Of a stretch of DNA of 30,102 bases, positions 10,332-30,102 are shown one piece after another. A program made the position numbers and the translations under genes. Within the stretch, counting starts at the first letter, position 1; every line of letters begins with the position of its first letter. The DNA is taken from positions 1-30,102 of IMG/VR virus record IMGVR_UViG_3300034062_003134; one strand, written 5' to 3'. The notes beneath the pieces are model-generated. The model worked only from the letters and a program-made list of their open reading frames with translations. It did not search any database and was not told the DNA's origin. The DNA comes from a virus.

Positions 10332-11920
10332 GCGATCGGTGGACCGAGGCTCAACTGCGCGGCGAGATCTACTGGGTGCTGTCCATCCAGTGGGCCGGCG
10401 GTACGTTCTACCTGTCCACCGACTCGCTCTACATCACAGACGGCGCGGACACGATCACCACAACGCCCGACCTTGTGGACTACCCGGCGGTCGAGGAGGC
10501 CCTTGAGATCTGGAGCGTCGAGGCTCCGCGCCTCTCGGTGCCGCTCTCGTTCATCCTTCCGGTCGATGTGCCTGGACTGATCGCCGAGGGGCACGCCCTC
10601 GACGGCGCAGTGGGCGAGCTGTCGCAGTGGGCAGCGGGTACGGACTGGGACGAGCGCCGGATCGTGGTGAGCGGCAAGCTGGTCGATCCCGAGTACGGCG
10701 CCGAATGGGAGCCGGTCACCTGCTCACTCGAGGAGATGGTCGCCGACGACCAGACGACCCTCCCCGTGCAGCCGATCACGATCGCGCCGTGGCTTGCTCG
10801 CGCCGTGAGCACGCTATCCTCGGCAGACGTAGGGGATGCTGGCGTGGTGATCCCGATGGTCTGGGGAACGCCGGGAGCAACGACCGCAGCCGGAAGCCCG
10901 GCGCCCATCATCGGGACGAGTGGCTCGCTCGTCTACCTGGGCATCGCGTGCCACTACGTCGAGGCGTTCTCGGTGGACATCATCGATAGCGCCGGCACGA
11001 CGGAGACGTTCGTCGTGTACTACACGGACATCCGTCAATACTGGGGCTATACACGAGGTATTCCTCTGGTTGCGTGGGTCGTGGTCGATACGAGTACGTC
11101 GTCGCTCGTGCTGACCGACCCGCTCTTCGCCATCTGGAATAACGGCGCGGCGCTCGTGGACGAGAGCAGTCAAGCCATTCGCGGCGTAGGCGATCTCCTC
11201 GCGCACGTCCTTCGCACCTCGGCGCTGCGCGTGGACTATGGCCGCGTCGATGCCGTGCGACCGTTGCTCAACCAGTATCAGACGAGCGGCTACATCGATG
11301 AGGTCGTGGCGCTCGGGGAGTACATCACCGAGGTGCTCGGCGCCGTGTTCCCGTTCGCGATGGCTGGCGGGCAGGGCGGCGTCTACCCGTTCCTCTGGCC
11401 GGTCTACCCGAACGCCACGTCGGCGATCACGGTCCTCTCCACCGACCTCGACCCGAACCTCGAGCGCGTCGGGCGCATCTCTTACGAAGGCTCTGACGAG
11501 GTCGCCACCGACATCGAGCTCCGGTACACGTGGAACCCGCAGACCGAGGGCTACATGGTCGCCCGCTCGATGGGCGGCGAGGTGTCCGTCGCGGACCCCG
11601 ACCGCATGACCATCGCGCAGCTCATCGGCCCGAGGTCACGCTACGGGCTGCGGCGCAAGGTGCTCGAGACGACGGTCGTGCATGACGCGACGACGGCGAG
11701 CAAGGTGCTGCTCGCCCAGGCGGCACGCTACGGCCAGCCCGCGCGCATGATGCAGTACATCGCGCCACGCCGATACGGCTGGCTTCGGCGTGGGGACCTC
11801 ATCGCGCTCACCGACATCGAGGTCGCGGCCTCGTCGCAGCTCTGCCTCATTGAAGGCGTGCAGTGGACCGAGGACGGCGCGCTCACGCTCACGCTGCGAT
11901 ACATCGAGGCGGGGGCCTAA
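10328..11920 (+). CDS. Tail hub / tail-associated protein (Tal-like)
   Basis: This 530-residue protein starts at ATG 10328, overlapping the upstream stop. It follows tape measure and distal tail protein, the usual place of the hub protein that closes the tail tube and carries fibres. The sequence is strand-rich. A late segment, GWLRRGDLIALTDIEV, followed by GVQWTEDGALTLTLRYIEA, resembles the C-terminal end of hub domains, where a directive on the coordinate system is followed by a final sheet. No lysozyme or peptidase motif is visible. Confidence 0.6.
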   Translation: MSDRWTEAQLRGEIYWVLSIQWAGGTFYLSTDSLYITDGADTITTTPDLVDYPAVEEALEIWSVEAPRLSVPLSFILPVDVPGLIAEGHALDGAVGELSQWAAGTDWDERRIVVSGKLVDPEYGAEWEPVTCSLEEMVADDQTTLPVQPITIAPWLARAVSTLSSADVGDAGVVIPMVWGTPGATTAAGSPAPIIGTSGSLVYLGIACHYVEAFSVDIIDSAGTTETFVVYYTDIRQYWGYTRGIPLVAWVVVDTSTSSLVLTDPLFAIWNNGAALVDESSQAIRGVGDLLAHVLRTSALRVDYGRVDAVRPLLNQYQTSGYIDEVVALGEYITEVLGAVFPFAMAGGQGGVYPFLWPVYPNATSAITVLSTDLDPNLERVGRISYEGSDEVATDIELRYTWNPQTEGYMVARSMGGEVSVADPDRMTIAQLIGPRSRYGLRRKVLETTVVHDATTASKVLLAQAARYGQPARMMQYIAPRRYGWLRRGDLIALTDIEVAASSQLCLIEGVQWTEDGALTLTLRYIEAGA

Positions 11921-18445: not shown

Positions 18446-18462
18446 CCCGTGGAGAGAGAAAA

Positions 18463-18672
18463 ATGGGATCGCTCGCAGACAGACGTAAAGCCGCCGGGCT
18501 CACGCAGGCGCAACTGGCCGACCTCGTCGGCGTCGGGATCAGCGCCATCAAGGCATACGAAAACGGGCGCCGCCGACCGGCCGCTCGCGTGATCATCGAA
18601 CTCTACAAAGCCCTCGGCCTAACGTCGAAGGACATCGCTGAGCTCTACATGACCGAAGGAGGTGGACAGTGA
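18463..18672 (+). CDS. Cro/C1-type HTH regulator (69 aa)
   Basis: ATG 18463 follows a GGAGAGAG stretch. The 69 residues form essentially one HTH_3/XRE domain: LADRRKAAGLTQAQLADLVG, then SAIKAYENGRRRPA, and a final helix. There is no dimerisation or LexA/S24-like domain, so it resembles Cro and not a lysogeny repressor. It is the first gene after the divergent promoters, whose inverted repeat is a likely binding site, suggesting feedback control of early genes. Confidence 0.8.
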   Translation: MGSLADRRKAAGLTQAQLADLVGVGISAIKAYENGRRRPAARVIIELYKALGLTSKDIAELYMTEGGGQ

Positions 18673-22338: not shown

Positions 22339-22348
22339 ACGGATGTCC

Positions 22349-22414
22349 TCGCAGGGACGCGGGCTTGATCACCCGCTCGCGGGGGGCGCAAAGCCCCCCG
22401 CTTCTCCCCTGCGA
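22349..22414 (+). ncRNA. Predicted three-way-junction leader RNA
   Basis: Three helices pair without conflict. P1 is TCGCAGGG (22349-22356) with CCCTGCGA (22407-22414). P2 is GCGGG (22359-22363) with CCCGC (22372-22376). P3 is GCGGGGGGC (22379-22387) with GCCCCCCGC (22393-22401). P1 closes the other two and begins only a few bases after the predicted transcription start. The primase start codon follows 18 bases after P1. It may be a structured regulatory leader, an attenuator (P3 resembles a terminator stem but has a weak T-run) or a small RNA. Confidence 0.5.
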
Positions 22415-22432
22415 CAAGACCTGCGAGACATC

Positions 22433-23284
22433 GTGAACATCCGTTACGCGCTGCGATACGCAGCCGCGGGACTGCGCGTGCATCCGCTCTACGAGGTCGA
22501 ACCGATCTCGCAGAAGTGCGCTTGCCCGCGTGGGACCGAGTGCGTCGAGAAGCAGAGAGGCAAGCACCCGAGGCTCGGGGGCTGGCAAGAGAAGGCCAGC
22601 ACCGATGAAGCGCAGGTGCGCGAATGGTGGGGCCGATGGCCTACAGCCGGCGTCGGCATCGCGACCGGAGCCACCTCGAAGGTCTGGGTGCTGGACGTGG
22701 ACGGCCCAGAGGCCATGGCATGGTACGACGCGCAGTGCGTGGCGAATGGCCTGACCGAGACGCTCGGTGTCCGCACGGCTCGAGGCGCTCACCTTTACTG
22801 GCGCTGGCCCGAGGTCATGGTCCGCAACGCGCAAGGCATCGCGCCCGGCGTCGATGTGCGAGGCGAGGGTGGGTACGTCTGTGCCCCACCGACCGTGCAT
22901 CGGAGCGGGCACGTCTACGCGTGGATCAATGAGCCGGGCTTCACGCGTGAGGCTGCACTAGCGCCCGCGTGGTTGCTCGACATGGTGAAGGAGAAGCCGA
23001 AGGCTCCCGTCCCGAAGGCCGTGCATGTCCCGACTCGCGTGCCGTGGTCGCGTGACGCTGCCGACCGAGAGCTCGCGCGAGTGCTGCGCCTCGACCCGCA
23101 CGCGCGCACCACGCTCGGGCAGCAGCTGGGCGCGGACATCGCCGCTCTGCACGTTCGACACGTCAAGTGCCCACAGTGCGGAGACAAGTCCGTATGGTGG
23201 ACGATCTCCGGACCAGGGCACGCCAAGTGCTCGCATCTCAACTCCTGCGGGTGGCACGCGCCGCTCGTTAGCCTTCTCTCCTAG
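22433..23284 (+). CDS. Bifunctional primase-polymerase (AEP/Prim-Pol type)
   Basis: The 283-residue protein is read from GTG 22433. The ATG at 22343 would lie at the transcription start and within the leader structure. Residues about 1-25 (NIRYALRYAAAGLRVHPLYE) match Prim-Pol N-termini. A Cys/His cluster with GKHPRLGGW follows. Then come the metal-binding VLDVDGPEA, a conserved RTARGAHLYWRWP, and GVDVRGEGGYVCAPPTVH with the sugar-binding pattern. The C-terminus is a zinc ribbon (CPQCGDKS...KCSHLNSC). It should make primers and possibly extend DNA with the adjacent helicase. Confidence 0.85.
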   Translation: MNIRYALRYAAAGLRVHPLYEVEPISQKCACPRGTECVEKQRGKHPRLGGWQEKASTDEAQVREWWGRWPTAGVGIATGATSKVWVLDVDGPEAMAWYDAQCVANGLTETLGVRTARGAHLYWRWPEVMVRNAQGIAPGVDVRGEGGYVCAPPTVHRSGHVYAWINEPGFTREAALAPAWLLDMVKEKPKAPVPKAVHVPTRVPWSRDAADRELARVLRLDPHARTTLGQQLGADIAALHVRHVKCPQCGDKSVWWTISGPGHAKCSHLNSCGWHAPLVSLLS

Positions 23285-23295
23285 AGGACCATTCC

Positions 23296-24537
23296 ATGCC
23301 CACGAAAGACGAAATGCGCGCCATGCTGAACCTCGCGCCGCCAGACGAGGAGGAGCCCTTCGACCTCGACCTCGAGATGAACCCGCCTAAGATCGTCGCG
23401 GGACAGATCGTGCCGAGCCGGCCGAAGTCCAGCCTCCTCAACCTCGACACGATCCTCCGTGGCGACCCGATGTTCGCAGGGGACATCAAGTACAGCGAGC
23501 TCAAGCAGAACATCATGGTCAACGGCAAGTCGATCGCCGACCATGACGTGACGGAGATGCGACTCAAGATCGCCAGCCGTCACCGGGTCGAGTTCAAGAA
23601 GGTGGACACAAACGAGGTGCTCGAGCTCATCGCCTACGAGAACCGATACCATCCCGTCCGCGACTGGCTCACGTCGCTGGAGTGGGACGGCGTCCCGCGC
23701 CTCGACACGTGGTTGACCCGCTGGGCGCAGGTGATTGACACGCCGCTCCACCGGGCCTACGCGCGCAAGACGTGCATCGGCGCCGTACGACGCGTGATGG
23801 AACCCGGTTCGAAGCTCGACACGGTCCTCGTGCTCCACGGCGCACACGGCAAGGGCAAGAGCACCCTCTGTCAGATCATGGCCCACGATCCGGCGTGGTA
23901 CTCGAACACCAAGATCGACTGGGACAGCAAGGAGAAGTACGTGGCGCTTCAGGGCGTGTGGATCTACGAGCTCGCCGAGCTGGCCGGCAAGCGCAAGGCA
24001 GATCAGGACACGGTCAAGAACTACATCAGCTCGGCGACCGACAAGTACCGTCCGTGGTACGGCAAGCACACCATCGAGGTCCCGCGCACATGCGCGTTCT
24101 TCGCGACAACGAACGATGACGAGCCCCTTCACGACCCGACCGGCAACCGGCGATGGTGGGTCGTATCGGTCGATGCGGTGGACACCGATCTCGTGAAGGC
24201 CGAGTACGAGCAAGTCTGGGCCGAGGCCATGGAAGCATGGCGGCAGGGCGAACAGCACTGGCTTGAGCCCGAACTTGAGCAGCAACGCGAGGAACAGAAC
24301 AGCGGGTACGAGACGCAAGACCCGCTCTTCCCGCGCCTCGTCCAGTACGCCCGCGCGAAGCATGCGTTCACTGTCGCCGACTTCCTCGAGGAGCAAGAGG
24401 TGCCCGCTTCGCAGTGGGCGCCCATGGCCACGAAGGTCGGCATGATGATGGCCCGCATCGGCACGCACCGACGCGTGGAGCGCAAGATCGACGGCGCCAA
24501 GGTTCGTCGGTACGAGATGGTCCACTCAGGCTCTTGA
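23296..24537 (+). CDS. VapE-like SF3 helicase/primase-associated ATPase
   Basis: This 413-residue protein starts at ATG 23296 with an AGAGGA site, 12 bases after the primase. Walker A is GAHGKGKST (about residues 182-190), Walker B is VWIYELAEL (221-229), the sensor is FFATTNDD (about 268-275) and PTGNRRWW follows near 281. These match the virulence-associated E / SF3 family of replication helicases. The N-terminal 130 residues are a separate helical domain typical of this family. It probably unwinds at the adjacent repeat cluster, paired with the Prim-Pol enzyme. Confidence 0.88.
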   Translation: MPTKDEMRAMLNLAPPDEEEPFDLDLEMNPPKIVAGQIVPSRPKSSLLNLDTILRGDPMFAGDIKYSELKQNIMVNGKSIADHDVTEMRLKIASRHRVEFKKVDTNEVLELIAYENRYHPVRDWLTSLEWDGVPRLDTWLTRWAQVIDTPLHRAYARKTCIGAVRRVMEPGSKLDTVLVLHGAHGKGKSTLCQIMAHDPAWYSNTKIDWDSKEKYVALQGVWIYELAELAGKRKADQDTVKNYISSATDKYRPWYGKHTIEVPRTCAFFATTNDDEPLHDPTGNRRWWVVSVDAVDTDLVKAEYEQVWAEAMEAWRQGEQHWLEPELEQQREEQNSGYETQDPLFPRLVQYARAKHAFTVADFLEEQEVPASQWAPMATKVGMMMARIGTHRRVERKIDGAKVRRYEMVHSGS

Positions 24538-24540
24538 TCG

Positions 24541-24730
24541 GGTGGCACCCTCCCCAACCCGGTGGCACCCTTTTTACGGTGAGGGTGCCACCCGAGAAAC
24601 GTAGGTAGAACCGTTTATAGGTCTGAAAGGTGGCACCCTCCCCAACCTCTTTTTCCTAGAAAGAGTGTAAGTATTAGAGAGAGTGTAGAGGGGAGGAAAG
24701 TGGGTGGGGAGGGTGGGGAGGGTGCCACCT
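24541..24730. repeat. Origin-like repeat cluster
   Basis: The interrupted palindrome GGTGGCACC occurs in five copies: direct at 24541, 24561 and 24629 and inverted at 24583-24592 and 24720-24729, each with a matching flank. The first and third copies share 19 identical bases (24541-24559 and 24629-24647). Copies 2 and inverted 1 form a 10-bp hairpin. Arms 24628-24644 and 24714-24730 form a perfect 17-bp inverted repeat. The enclosed DNA is A+T-rich for this genome and carries AGAGTGTA twice (24662 and 24680). No gene lies here. It is placed directly after primase and helicase genes, and no T-run follows, so an origin is more likely than a terminator. Confidence 0.7.
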
Positions 24731-24749
24731 CAACGCGAGGAGGTAGGTC

Positions 24750-25565: not shown

Positions 25566-25934
25566 ATGGCGATCGAACGCCGCAAGCCACGCGACCGGGC
25601 GACCAACTACGGCAAGCTTCCCGACACCCAGGAGCGCGTGGAGTACCTGCGCGATGCCCTGCGCCACGCGGAGAGCATGGTCACGCAGGCCGAGGAGGCG
25701 CGCAGCTGGCAGGCCGCGGTCAGCGCAAAGCGCCTCGCGCTCCAGACGCGTGACGAGCTCGACCTCGCGCTTGCCAAGGCCTCGGCCCCTGACGACACTA
25801 TGAGCGATGAGCAACTCCTCTCGATCATGGTCCAGGCCATCGCCTCGTTACCGGCTCAGCACCTCGAGCGGCTTGAGGACGCGATCGGCATCCGACGTGG
25901 CGCTCCGCCCGTGCGACTGGTTGAGACTGCTTGA
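25566..25934 (+). CDS. terS: Putative small terminase subunit
   Basis: ATG 25566 has GGAG upstream, giving 122 residues, almost all helix: a basic N-terminus (MAIERRKPRDRATNYGK), a long central helix with many Ala and Glu, and a C-terminal helix DEQLLSIMVQAIASLPAQHLERL. It immediately precedes the large terminase and overlaps its TTG start. Small terminases recognise the packaging site and assemble as rings. The sequence is not diagnostic by eye, so the assignment relies on position, size and helicity. An earlier in-frame start at 25371 lacks a ribosome binding site. Confidence 0.65.
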   Translation: MAIERRKPRDRATNYGKLPDTQERVEYLRDALRHAESMVTQAEEARSWQAAVSAKRLALQTRDELDLALAKASAPDDTMSDEQLLSIMVQAIASLPAQHLERLEDAIGIRRGAPPVRLVETA

Positions 25935-27319
25935 ACCTCGCCTCCCTCGCTACGGCGACGAACACGCTTGCACGCCGGGCACACGCGGACCCGCTGGCCT
26001 ACTTCCGGCCGACGCCCCCGCAGCTCGCCTTCCTCTCGAGCAACCATCCGATCCGGCTGCTCCGCGCCGGGAACCAGTTGGGCAAGACGTGGGCGGGCCT
26101 CGCCGACTGCATCTATCGGTGCCTCGGGTCGCACCCGTACACGCTGGTCAAGGCCGCGCCTATTGAGGCGTGGGTCGTGGTCGTGTCGTGGGAGCAGAGC
26201 CTCTCGATTCAAGCGAAGCTCTGGCAGCTGCTCCCGAAGGACGCCATCGAGCCAGACTGCGAGTACACGCCGGGTAAGGGCTTCCGCGGTCGCACGCCCA
26301 TCGTGCGGTTCAAGAACGGTAGTGTGCTCCGCATCCGCACGGTCAATCAGGGCGCCCTCGCGCTGGCTGGCTCGACCATTGACTACGTGCTGATAGACGA
26401 GCCCCCGCCGGAAGAGATCTGGTCGGAGCTGGCGGCACGCGTGCTGCGCCAGCGAGGGCGCATCGCGATCACGCTTACGCCCATCGGGCTCCCCCTCGGG
26501 TGGCTGAAGAAGCTGGTCGAGGAGCAGGTCGTGCAGGACCTGCACTTTCCGCTCACGGTCGAGAACACCACGCCCATCGGTGGGCGTCCACTGCTTACGC
26601 GCGAGGACATCGAGAAGCTCGAGGGGCAGGTACTCCCGCAAGAGCGCGCTCAACGCATACACGGAGAGTGGGATGCGGGCTGGACGGAGGGGAGGATTTT
26701 TCGCATGTTCGACCCGACGACGCACGTCCGCGCCGACGTACCGGCCGGCGAGGCGCTTATCGGCGTGGGCATCGATCACGGCACCGAGGCCGGCGCACAG
26801 GTCGCCGTCCTGACGGCGCTGGTCCGCGACGGCGGAGAGGGACACCCGAAGATCTGGGTGCTCGACCAGATCGTTTCGGATGGCATGACCACGCCCGACC
26901 AGGACGCCGCGGCGCTCCTCGCGATGCTCAAGCGATGCGGGCTGCGCTGGGAGAACGTGGATCGGTGGGTAGGCGACCGCAAGGTGTACGGCAAGAGGAA
27001 CGGCTCGCTCAAGTCGAACGCGATGCTCATGTCCTCACTCGAGCGCGCGCTCAAGCTGCCCACCGGGAGCCTCCCCTTCCGCATCCATACGGCGTATAAG
27101 CCTCGCGGGTCGGTGTTCGAGGGCTATCGGGTGCTGTCCGCGGCGATGCTCCGCAACGACTTCAGCATCAACCCGCGGTGCCGCGGCCTCATTGACGACC
27201 TACAGAAGTTCGACGGGCGCGAGGCCAGCGAGCATAAGCACAGCATCGACGCGCTGCGCTACACGCTCGAACTGTATACTAGGCGTCTGTATCAGCCGAC
27301 CGCGATAAGACTAGGCTAG
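25931..27319 (+). CDS. terL: Large terminase subunit
   Basis: TTG 25931 overlaps the previous stop (TTGA), giving 462 residues. The ATPase domain carries Walker A RAGNQLGKTW (residues 45-54) and Walker B YVLIDEPP (152-159) with the catalytic Glu. The nuclease domain begins near IGVGIDHGTEAG with Asp 282. A late HSIDALRY (about 441-448) provides the last acidic residue typical of the RNase H-like nuclease. It is the packaging motor that cuts DNA and drives it into the prohead through the portal. The rare TTG start may limit its level relative to the small subunit. Confidence 0.92.
   Translation: MNLASLATATNTLARRAHADPLAYFRPTPPQLAFLSSNHPIRLLRAGNQLGKTWAGLADCIYRCLGSHPYTLVKAAPIEAWVVVVSWEQSLSIQAKLWQLLPKDAIEPDCEYTPGKGFRGRTPIVRFKNGSVLRIRTVNQGALALAGSTIDYVLIDEPPPEEIWSELAARVLRQRGRIAITLTPIGLPLGWLKKLVEEQVVQDLHFPLTVENTTPIGGRPLLTREDIEKLEGQVLPQERAQRIHGEWDAGWTEGRIFRMFDPTTHVRADVPAGEALIGVGIDHGTEAGAQVAVLTALVRDGGEGHPKIWVLDQIVSDGMTTPDQDAAALLAMLKRCGLRWENVDRWVGDRKVYGKRNGSLKSNAMLMSSLERALKLPTGSLPFRIHTAYKPRGSVFEGYRVLSAAMLRNDFSINPRCRGLIDDLQKFDGREASEHKHSIDALRYTLELYTRRLYQPTAIRLG
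27273..27280 (+). promoter_or_regulatory. TGTATACT element, candidate promoter before the portal gene
   Basis: TATACT (27275-27280) preceded by TG and followed by AGGCG lies in the last codons of the large terminase, 49 bases before the portal start. No -35 is evident. It shares the octamer with 1839 and 25476. Confidence 0.35.
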
Positions 27320-29488: not shown

Positions 29489-30048
29489 CCGAGGAAGGAA
29501 CCACGACCACGACCACGACCACGGCAGAAGCCAGCGACAACGGAGCGGGCGCCCGCATCCGGCAGCTCGTGGCGCGAGTCAAGGAACTCGAGGGTCGCGT
29601 CAGCGAGCTGACCCCGCTCGCCGAGAGCGCCGAGAAGTACCGGGCGCAGATCGAGGAGGTCAAGGCCGCGAGTAAGGCCGAGCGCGAGGCGCTCCGAACC
29701 GAGCGTGAGATCGCCGCGGCTGGCATCACCGACGCCGAGGGCATCGACTACGTGCAACATGCCTACAGCCGACTCCCCAGCGAGGGCCGTCCCCCGCTCG
29801 CGGAGTGGCTCGCCAACAAGGACACGCTCCCGAAGGCAGTGCGCGCCTACCTGCCCGAGGCCGCTCCCGCTGCGCCCGCAGCCCCGGCGGCTCCCGTTAC
29901 GACGGCGATGCCGAAGGTCAACGCCGGCACGGTCACGCAGACGCCGCCGGCAACCACGGCGTGGACGCCCGAGGCGATCATGCGTCTCTCGCCCGCAGAG
30001 TTCAAGGCGAACGCGGCAGCGATCAAGGCAGCGTTCTCGGCCCCTTGA
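29485..30048 (+). CDS. Scaffold protein
   Basis: This 187-residue protein starts at ATG 29485 with GAGGAGG just upstream and overlaps the previous stop. An N-terminal run of eight Thr precedes a coiled coil (RIRQLVARVKELEGRVSEL and onward). A Pro/Ala hinge (APAAPAAPAAPV) and a C-terminal helical module ending MRLSPAEFKANAAAIKAAF follow, the latter a common capsid-binding end of scaffolds. It is just upstream of the capsid gene. Its last 124 bases recur at 1-124. It is probably removed before maturation. Confidence 0.8.
   Translation: MTEEGTTTTTTTTAEASDNGAGARIRQLVARVKELEGRVSELTPLAESAEKYRAQIEEVKAASKAEREALRTEREIAAAGITDAEGIDYVQHAYSRLPSEGRPPLAEWLANKDTLPKAVRAYLPEAAPAAPAAPAAPVTTAMPKVNAGTVTQTPPATTAWTPEAIMRLSPAEFKANAAAIKAAFSAP
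29500..29523 (+). repeat. Six-base microsatellite encoding Thr8 in the scaffold gene
   Basis: ACCACG is repeated four times in frame (29500-29523), coding eight consecutive Thr near the N-terminus. Such tandem repeats can change length by slippage without losing the frame, so the Thr tract may vary between strains. Confidence 0.75.
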
Positions 30049-30102
30049 CATTCTGTCACGCGTAGGCATACCCTAGCCGTGGGGACACTCCCCACGCGCT
30101 CG
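29925..30102. repeat. Right copy of the 178-bp terminal redundancy
   Basis: It repeats 1-178 with six differences, all in its first 52 bases and all at third positions of scaffold codons. It carries the scaffold 3' end, the stop 30046-30048, the capsid promoter (TTGACA 30045-30050 and TACCCT 30069-30074) and part of the leader. Confidence 0.9.

Follow-up and report, generated by a model that had tools for sequence, protein, structure and literature searches.

A probable iteron-type replication origin behind a VapE-type helicase gene in a phage genome, with counterparts in other VapE phages

The helicase gene and the repeat block behind it

The window, by which we mean the whole stretch of viral DNA analysed here, is a record of 30102 bases. 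Positions 2–178 and 29926–30102 form end repeats of 177 nt that are 97% identical, not perfect, which suggests that the genome is circular or has terminal redundancy, or else that the assembly left an overlap containing errors; on the basis of these repeats the window is probably a circularly closed phage genome. On the plus strand, a gene for an archaeo-eukaryotic primase-polymerase (Prim-Pol; 22343–23284; PF09250, E = 4.7e-38; PHROG primase/polymerase families) is followed by the gene for a VapE-type helicase (23296–24537; PF05272, E = 3.5e-72; match to PriRep1, PDB 7PDS), which we propose as the origin-binding initiator. Behind it lies the longest gap without genes in the genome according to our own gene model, 212 bp at 24538–24749. 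An earlier note on this DNA had pointed to a longest gene-free stretch just downstream of primase-polymerase and helicase genes, and the gene model and the domain matches agree with it in both respects. Two further genes bear on the interpretation below: the gene for the terminase large subunit (25931–27319), which starts 1.2 kb downstream of the repeat region, and one at 18460–18672 that encodes a small helix-turn-helix, Cro/CI-like protein.

The gap contains five copies of the 9-mer GGTGNCACC, starting at 24541, 24561, 24584, 24629 and 24721, with none elsewhere in the genome. Dinucleotide shuffles gave a mean of 0.73 copies per genome and never five, and in 200 simulated 30-kb genomes any 190-bp stretch held at most two copies. 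Since the 9-mer is an odd palindrome, the orientation of a copy can be told from nothing but its middle base and the CCCT beside it. Read as the 11-mer GGTGGCACCCT, copy 1 (24541–24551, 4 bp past the helicase stop codon), copy 2 (24561–24571) and copy 4 (24629–24639) are on the plus strand, and copy 3 (24582–24592) and copy 5 (24719–24729) are inverted, on the minus strand; together they span +4 to +192 from the helicase stop. Copy 3 could form an 11-bp hairpin with copy 2, and copy 5 lies on the far side of the proposed unwinding element described below. All five copies reported in the earlier note, three direct and two inverted, were located at 24541–24730, together with the 17-bp inverted repeat it had described. 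This is the longest perfect one (24628–24644 with 24714–24730), and it grows to 22-nt arms around a 59-nt loop when one mismatch is allowed. The 19 identical bases that the note had assigned to copies 1 and 3, GGTGGCACCCTCCCCAACC, are present at 24541–24559 and 24629–24647, but the second of these is copy 4, only direct copies having been counted there. We conclude that the repeat layout at 24541–24729 is beyond chance expectation. The end of a tandem of GGGTGGGGA at 24702–24724 is overlapped by copy 5; this tandem has several G runs from which a G-quadruplex might fold, both in the window and in the relatives closest to it. The G-quadruplex was dropped as a candidate feature, being without conservation in two relatives with five repeat copies, L131 and L132.

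The weakest-paired segment sits between copy 4 and the inverted copy 5. By nearest-neighbour stability on the circular, 29.9-kb genome, 24642–24701 has the lowest duplex stability of all 60-bp windows in the genome; the least stable windows of 40 and 60 bp start at 24642–24647 and that of 100 bp at 24601. What had been noticed as an A+T-rich segment amid the repeats is the least stable duplex that the genome has, and we propose 24642–24701 as a DNA unwinding element. It contains both copies of AGAGTGTA (24662 and 24680), the only two in the genome and the pair that the same description had placed in this segment. GC skew, which had been suggested as a check, showed no extremum at the site, the extrema lying elsewhere in the genome; having no turning point at 24538–24749, the skew neither helps nor decides on an origin here.

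The AlphaFold2 model of the helicase (mean pLDDT 87.7) has a predicted winged helix at its C terminus (residues 344–408; domain alone 88.9), with the recognition helix at 371–388 and the wing at 391–408. Most of this domain, residues about 351–409 as delimited with AlphaFold2 and Foldseek, is encoded by the plus-strand segment 24346–24522. The closest solved structure is that of PriRep1, from a staphylococcal pathogenicity island, bound to dsDNA (PDB 7PDS; profile E = 8.7e-101, fold TM 0.72–0.77). A Foldseek search with the C-terminal domain alone returned general winged-helix matches only (best E = 3e-3).

Repeat blocks at related and distant VapE loci

Relatives were picked by helicase profile against IMG/VR, the best 80 loci being kept, and the repeats were not used for finding them. 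Helicase identity to the window is 96–98% for L128, L129 and L007, 77% for L004, 73% for L130 and 68% for L131 and L132. Five copies are kept in L128, L129, L007, L131 and L132 at nearly fixed distances from the helicase stop (about +2/4, +23/24, +47/48, +89/92 and +181/185); L130 has four copies and L004 a degenerate set, both without an intact copy 4. The genes behind the block are of three unrelated kinds among the relatives, and the block therefore travels with the helicase. The earlier note had held that absence of the repeats from close relatives keeping the helicase would speak against an origin. Close relatives that keep the helicase also keep the repeats, as four or five copies and in one case as a degenerate set, and more distant ones carry another word.

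This other word, CTGTCCCACC, makes up each copy in L133 and L134, whose helicases are 59 and 56% identical to that of the window. The copies lie at corresponding distances from the stop and follow the window in their order (direct, direct, inverted, direct, inverted), with one extra direct copy at the block start of L134. CTGTCCCACC is not palindromic. The C-terminal domain of the two helicases is 40–46% identical to that of the window and the ATPase core about 64%, and the window's SQW..MATKVGMMM, in and before the predicted recognition helix, is replaced by SQLTGGIATRIGHMM or GQLTTGVATRIGTMV. The C-terminal change thus tracks the change of word, a correlation from two sequences and not a demonstrated code. 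We regard this coordinated switch as the useful part of the result: that from GGTGGCACCC to CTGTCCCACC between helicases 56–59% identical is a natural series for studying site choice by a winged helix, and it would also suit a test of whether swapping the winged helix swaps the origin. L133 and L134 each have an additional inverted pair of CTGTCCCACC about +266 to +298 from the stop; this pair makes a hairpin beyond the main repeat block, beside or inside the small gene that comes next.

VapE genes more distant from that of the window are followed by blocks of other words, including GAGAGGGGT, GAGAGACC, TCTGACTCA, GGTCGTGGA, AGGTTAGGA and GTAGGGACA. The counts that follow come from mutually related loci and describe a tendency rather than independent trials, so that the P value of the first comparison overstates independence. 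Among the best 80 viral loci, 22 had some 8-mer occurring four or more times within 300 bp downstream of VapE, compared with 11 of 1301 windows taken elsewhere in these loci. When viral and named loci were set against shuffles, 28 of 90 beat every shuffle, and 27 of these 28 contained direct as well as inverted copies. For loci drawn from bacterial genome assemblies, 11 of 70 were positive (22 of 880 control windows held such an 8-mer). The least stable 60 bp of the locus fell within 400 bp after VapE at 23 of 77 loci, 3.8 being expected. Not all VapE loci have such a block; roughly a quarter to a third do. Five of the nine isolated phages checked have it (Acutalibacter phage Fontainebleau, Corynebacterium phage Troy, Enterococcus phage phiFL4A, Synechococcus phage S-LBS1 and Paenibacillus phage Lena), and four are without it; its absence from these four and the limited share of VapE loci that have it both count against the origin reading put forward below. 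Neither 'origin of replication' nor 'iteron' is used in the main text of the S-LBS1 paper. Searching the region against named phages with blastn gave a single short match in the helicase and nothing else, and a literature text search found nothing on the motif among the papers listed. At five loci with Bacteroidota VapE genes (L269, L273, L288, L290 and L305) the gene is followed by an 8-base word in two direct and two inverted copies, about 100 bp apart; the word often resembles CTGTCAC.

The proposed origin and alternative readings

The predicted winged helix, the homology to PriRep1, the repeat layout, the weak duplex, and a block that is kept with the helicase or switched in concert with it lead us to read 24538–24749 as an iteron origin of the island-Rep kind. 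We consider it very probable that the region is a replication origin of the initiator-helicase type represented by SaPI Rep and pRN1, with VapE driving the opening and Prim-Pol the priming. The C-terminal winged helix of VapE would bind the five iterons, and one or more VapE rings would assemble on the two oppositely oriented iteron groups, facing across 24642–24701. ATP-driven opening of this weak duplex would then expose DNA on which the neighbouring Prim-Pol could make the first primers. The probable iteron origin of the earlier note is in this way supported by the relatives, by the weak duplex and by the equivalent blocks elsewhere, and the comparisons argue well for an origin of a known kind.

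Iterons flank an easily melted segment in island origins, and the phage has the features that mark the SaPI type: a VapE/PriRep helicase, a predicted C-terminal winged helix, downstream iterons and an easily melted segment. Initiators of the lambda O type are likewise winged-helix proteins on iterons adjoining A+T-rich DNA; they differ in that O, unlike VapE, has no helicase and that its iterons are located inside the initiator gene. SaPI Rep is reported to recognise iterons directly downstream of its own gene through its C-terminal domain (PMC7581432). PriRep1 and the phage protein belong to the same helicase family and have a C-terminal DNA-binding domain, predicted in the phage, and short iterons lie directly behind the helicase gene in both, for SaPI as described in PMC7581432; the phage differs in being a tailed phage, in its separate Prim-Pol gene and in its other surroundings. 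SCCmec Cch2, a 3'-to-5' helicase, binds direct repeats behind its own gene via its C-terminal domain, and a polymerase partner primes there (PMC7581432). Cch2 differs in its type, given as D5_N/Primase_Cterm in PMC7581432, in its A-family polymerase-based primase and in a 23-bp direct-repeat region with AAGTG. pRN1 resembles the phage in combining Prim-Pol, helicase and winged helix with a putative origin 3' of the gene, in its case a putative stem-loop just 3' of the primase-helicase gene orf904 whose loop contains GTG and CAC one base apart (PMC4234260). However, pRN1 lacks iterons and encodes a single fused protein, whereas the phage has five iterons and two proteins. With the pRN1 protein, which has a similar arrangement of domains, neither gel-shift nor footprinting revealed specific binding to the region downstream of its own gene (PMC4234260), and we count this against the iteron-origin reading.

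pRN1 also provides the model for a structure-driven origin, in which the long stem-loop of copies 4 and 5 matters and the word is secondary. The 22-nt arms and 59-nt loop are close to the 21-nt stem and 58-nt loop of pRN1 (PMC4234260), and single-strand folding is strong (z = -6.2 and -7.8). Folding cannot separate this idea from that of iterons, because inverted iterons pair by construction. We consider it unlikely, and the relatives speak against it: pairing in L133 and L134 is reduced to the iteron itself, and L130 and L004 are without an intact copy 4, while iteron number and orientation are in other respects retained. A conserved-palindrome operator, the main alternative of the earlier note, would have a dimeric repressor, for example the 18460–18672 protein, bind GGTG-N-CACC to regulate the genes downstream of the helicase gene. 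In favour of this, the 9-mer has good dyad symmetry and a Cro/CI-like protein is encoded by the phage; an initiator, once bound, might repress nearby transcription as well. We nevertheless consider an operator block improbable, since the layout stays in L133 and L134 with a word that is not a palindrome, so that the palindromic look of GGTGNCACC is incidental. Moreover, the block goes with the helicase while the genes downstream differ between relatives, the word has no copies elsewhere in the genome, the repressor gene included, and a promoter scan, the reach of which was sigma-70-like promoters, found none.

Packaging sites often have repeats close to terminase genes, and the large-subunit gene begins only 1.2 kb downstream. 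A pac or cos site for terminase is nonetheless very improbable, given that in Fontainebleau, phiFL4A and Lena what follows the block is not terminase but a second helicase gene and a gene for a VRR-Nuc protein or an endonuclease, and that the repeat word changes with the helicase clade. We attach equally little weight to an intrinsic transcription terminator behind the helicase operon. The 11-bp hairpin of copies 2 and 3 is suitably placed just past the stop codon, but no T run follows it on either strand, a terminator scan finds none, and copies 1, 4 and 5 and the weak duplex would be left unexplained.

The same word at O-like genes and other VapE loci

Three clustered copies of GGTGNCACC were found in at least 120 stretches in a scan of IMG/VR, and the composition-matched word GTGGNCCAC in 33. 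Among the matches listed (L012–L127), the GGTGNCACC cluster lies inside an O-like HTH_36 gene at 48 of 116 loci and beside one at 2 more; with the control word, at most 2 of 33 loci have an HTH_36-type gene close to the cluster or overlapping it. The same nine bases therefore seem to serve unrelated initiators. Further listed clusters resemble repeats inside coding sequence. That all clustered GGTGNCACC in viral contigs are VapE origins was ruled out, about 50 of the 116 listed being at HTH_36 genes.

A broader reading of the iteron origin is possible, and we put it forward tentatively. VapE-helicase phages of hosts from several bacterial phyla would share one origin layout (iterons a few bases past the stop, an easily melted segment and opposite iterons behind it) in which lineage-specific words are exchanged. 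The exchange would follow a helicase-iteron code, with the recognition helix of the winged helix and the iteron word changing in concert, and GGTGNCACC would have been reached independently by unrelated O-like initiators. Most phages for which only sequence is available have unmapped origins; should the block that follows VapE be an origin, the sequence alone would reveal it in a recognisable subset of the phages and prophages with Prim-Pol and VapE.

As a general VapE word GGTGNCACC was ruled out, since among VapE loci outside the close clade it occurs at only a few distant ones, such as L031 and L081. Ten copies each, with A or T as the middle base, are found directly after the VapE gene in L031 (2914–3290) and L081 (6440–6788); these VapE proteins are only 24% identical to that of the window, and the word may possibly be in convergent use there. 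Two further loci of the 33 in the control set have repeat blocks of the control word GTGGNCCAC directly behind VapE genes, at 10369–10417 of L208 and 6070–6371 of L219.
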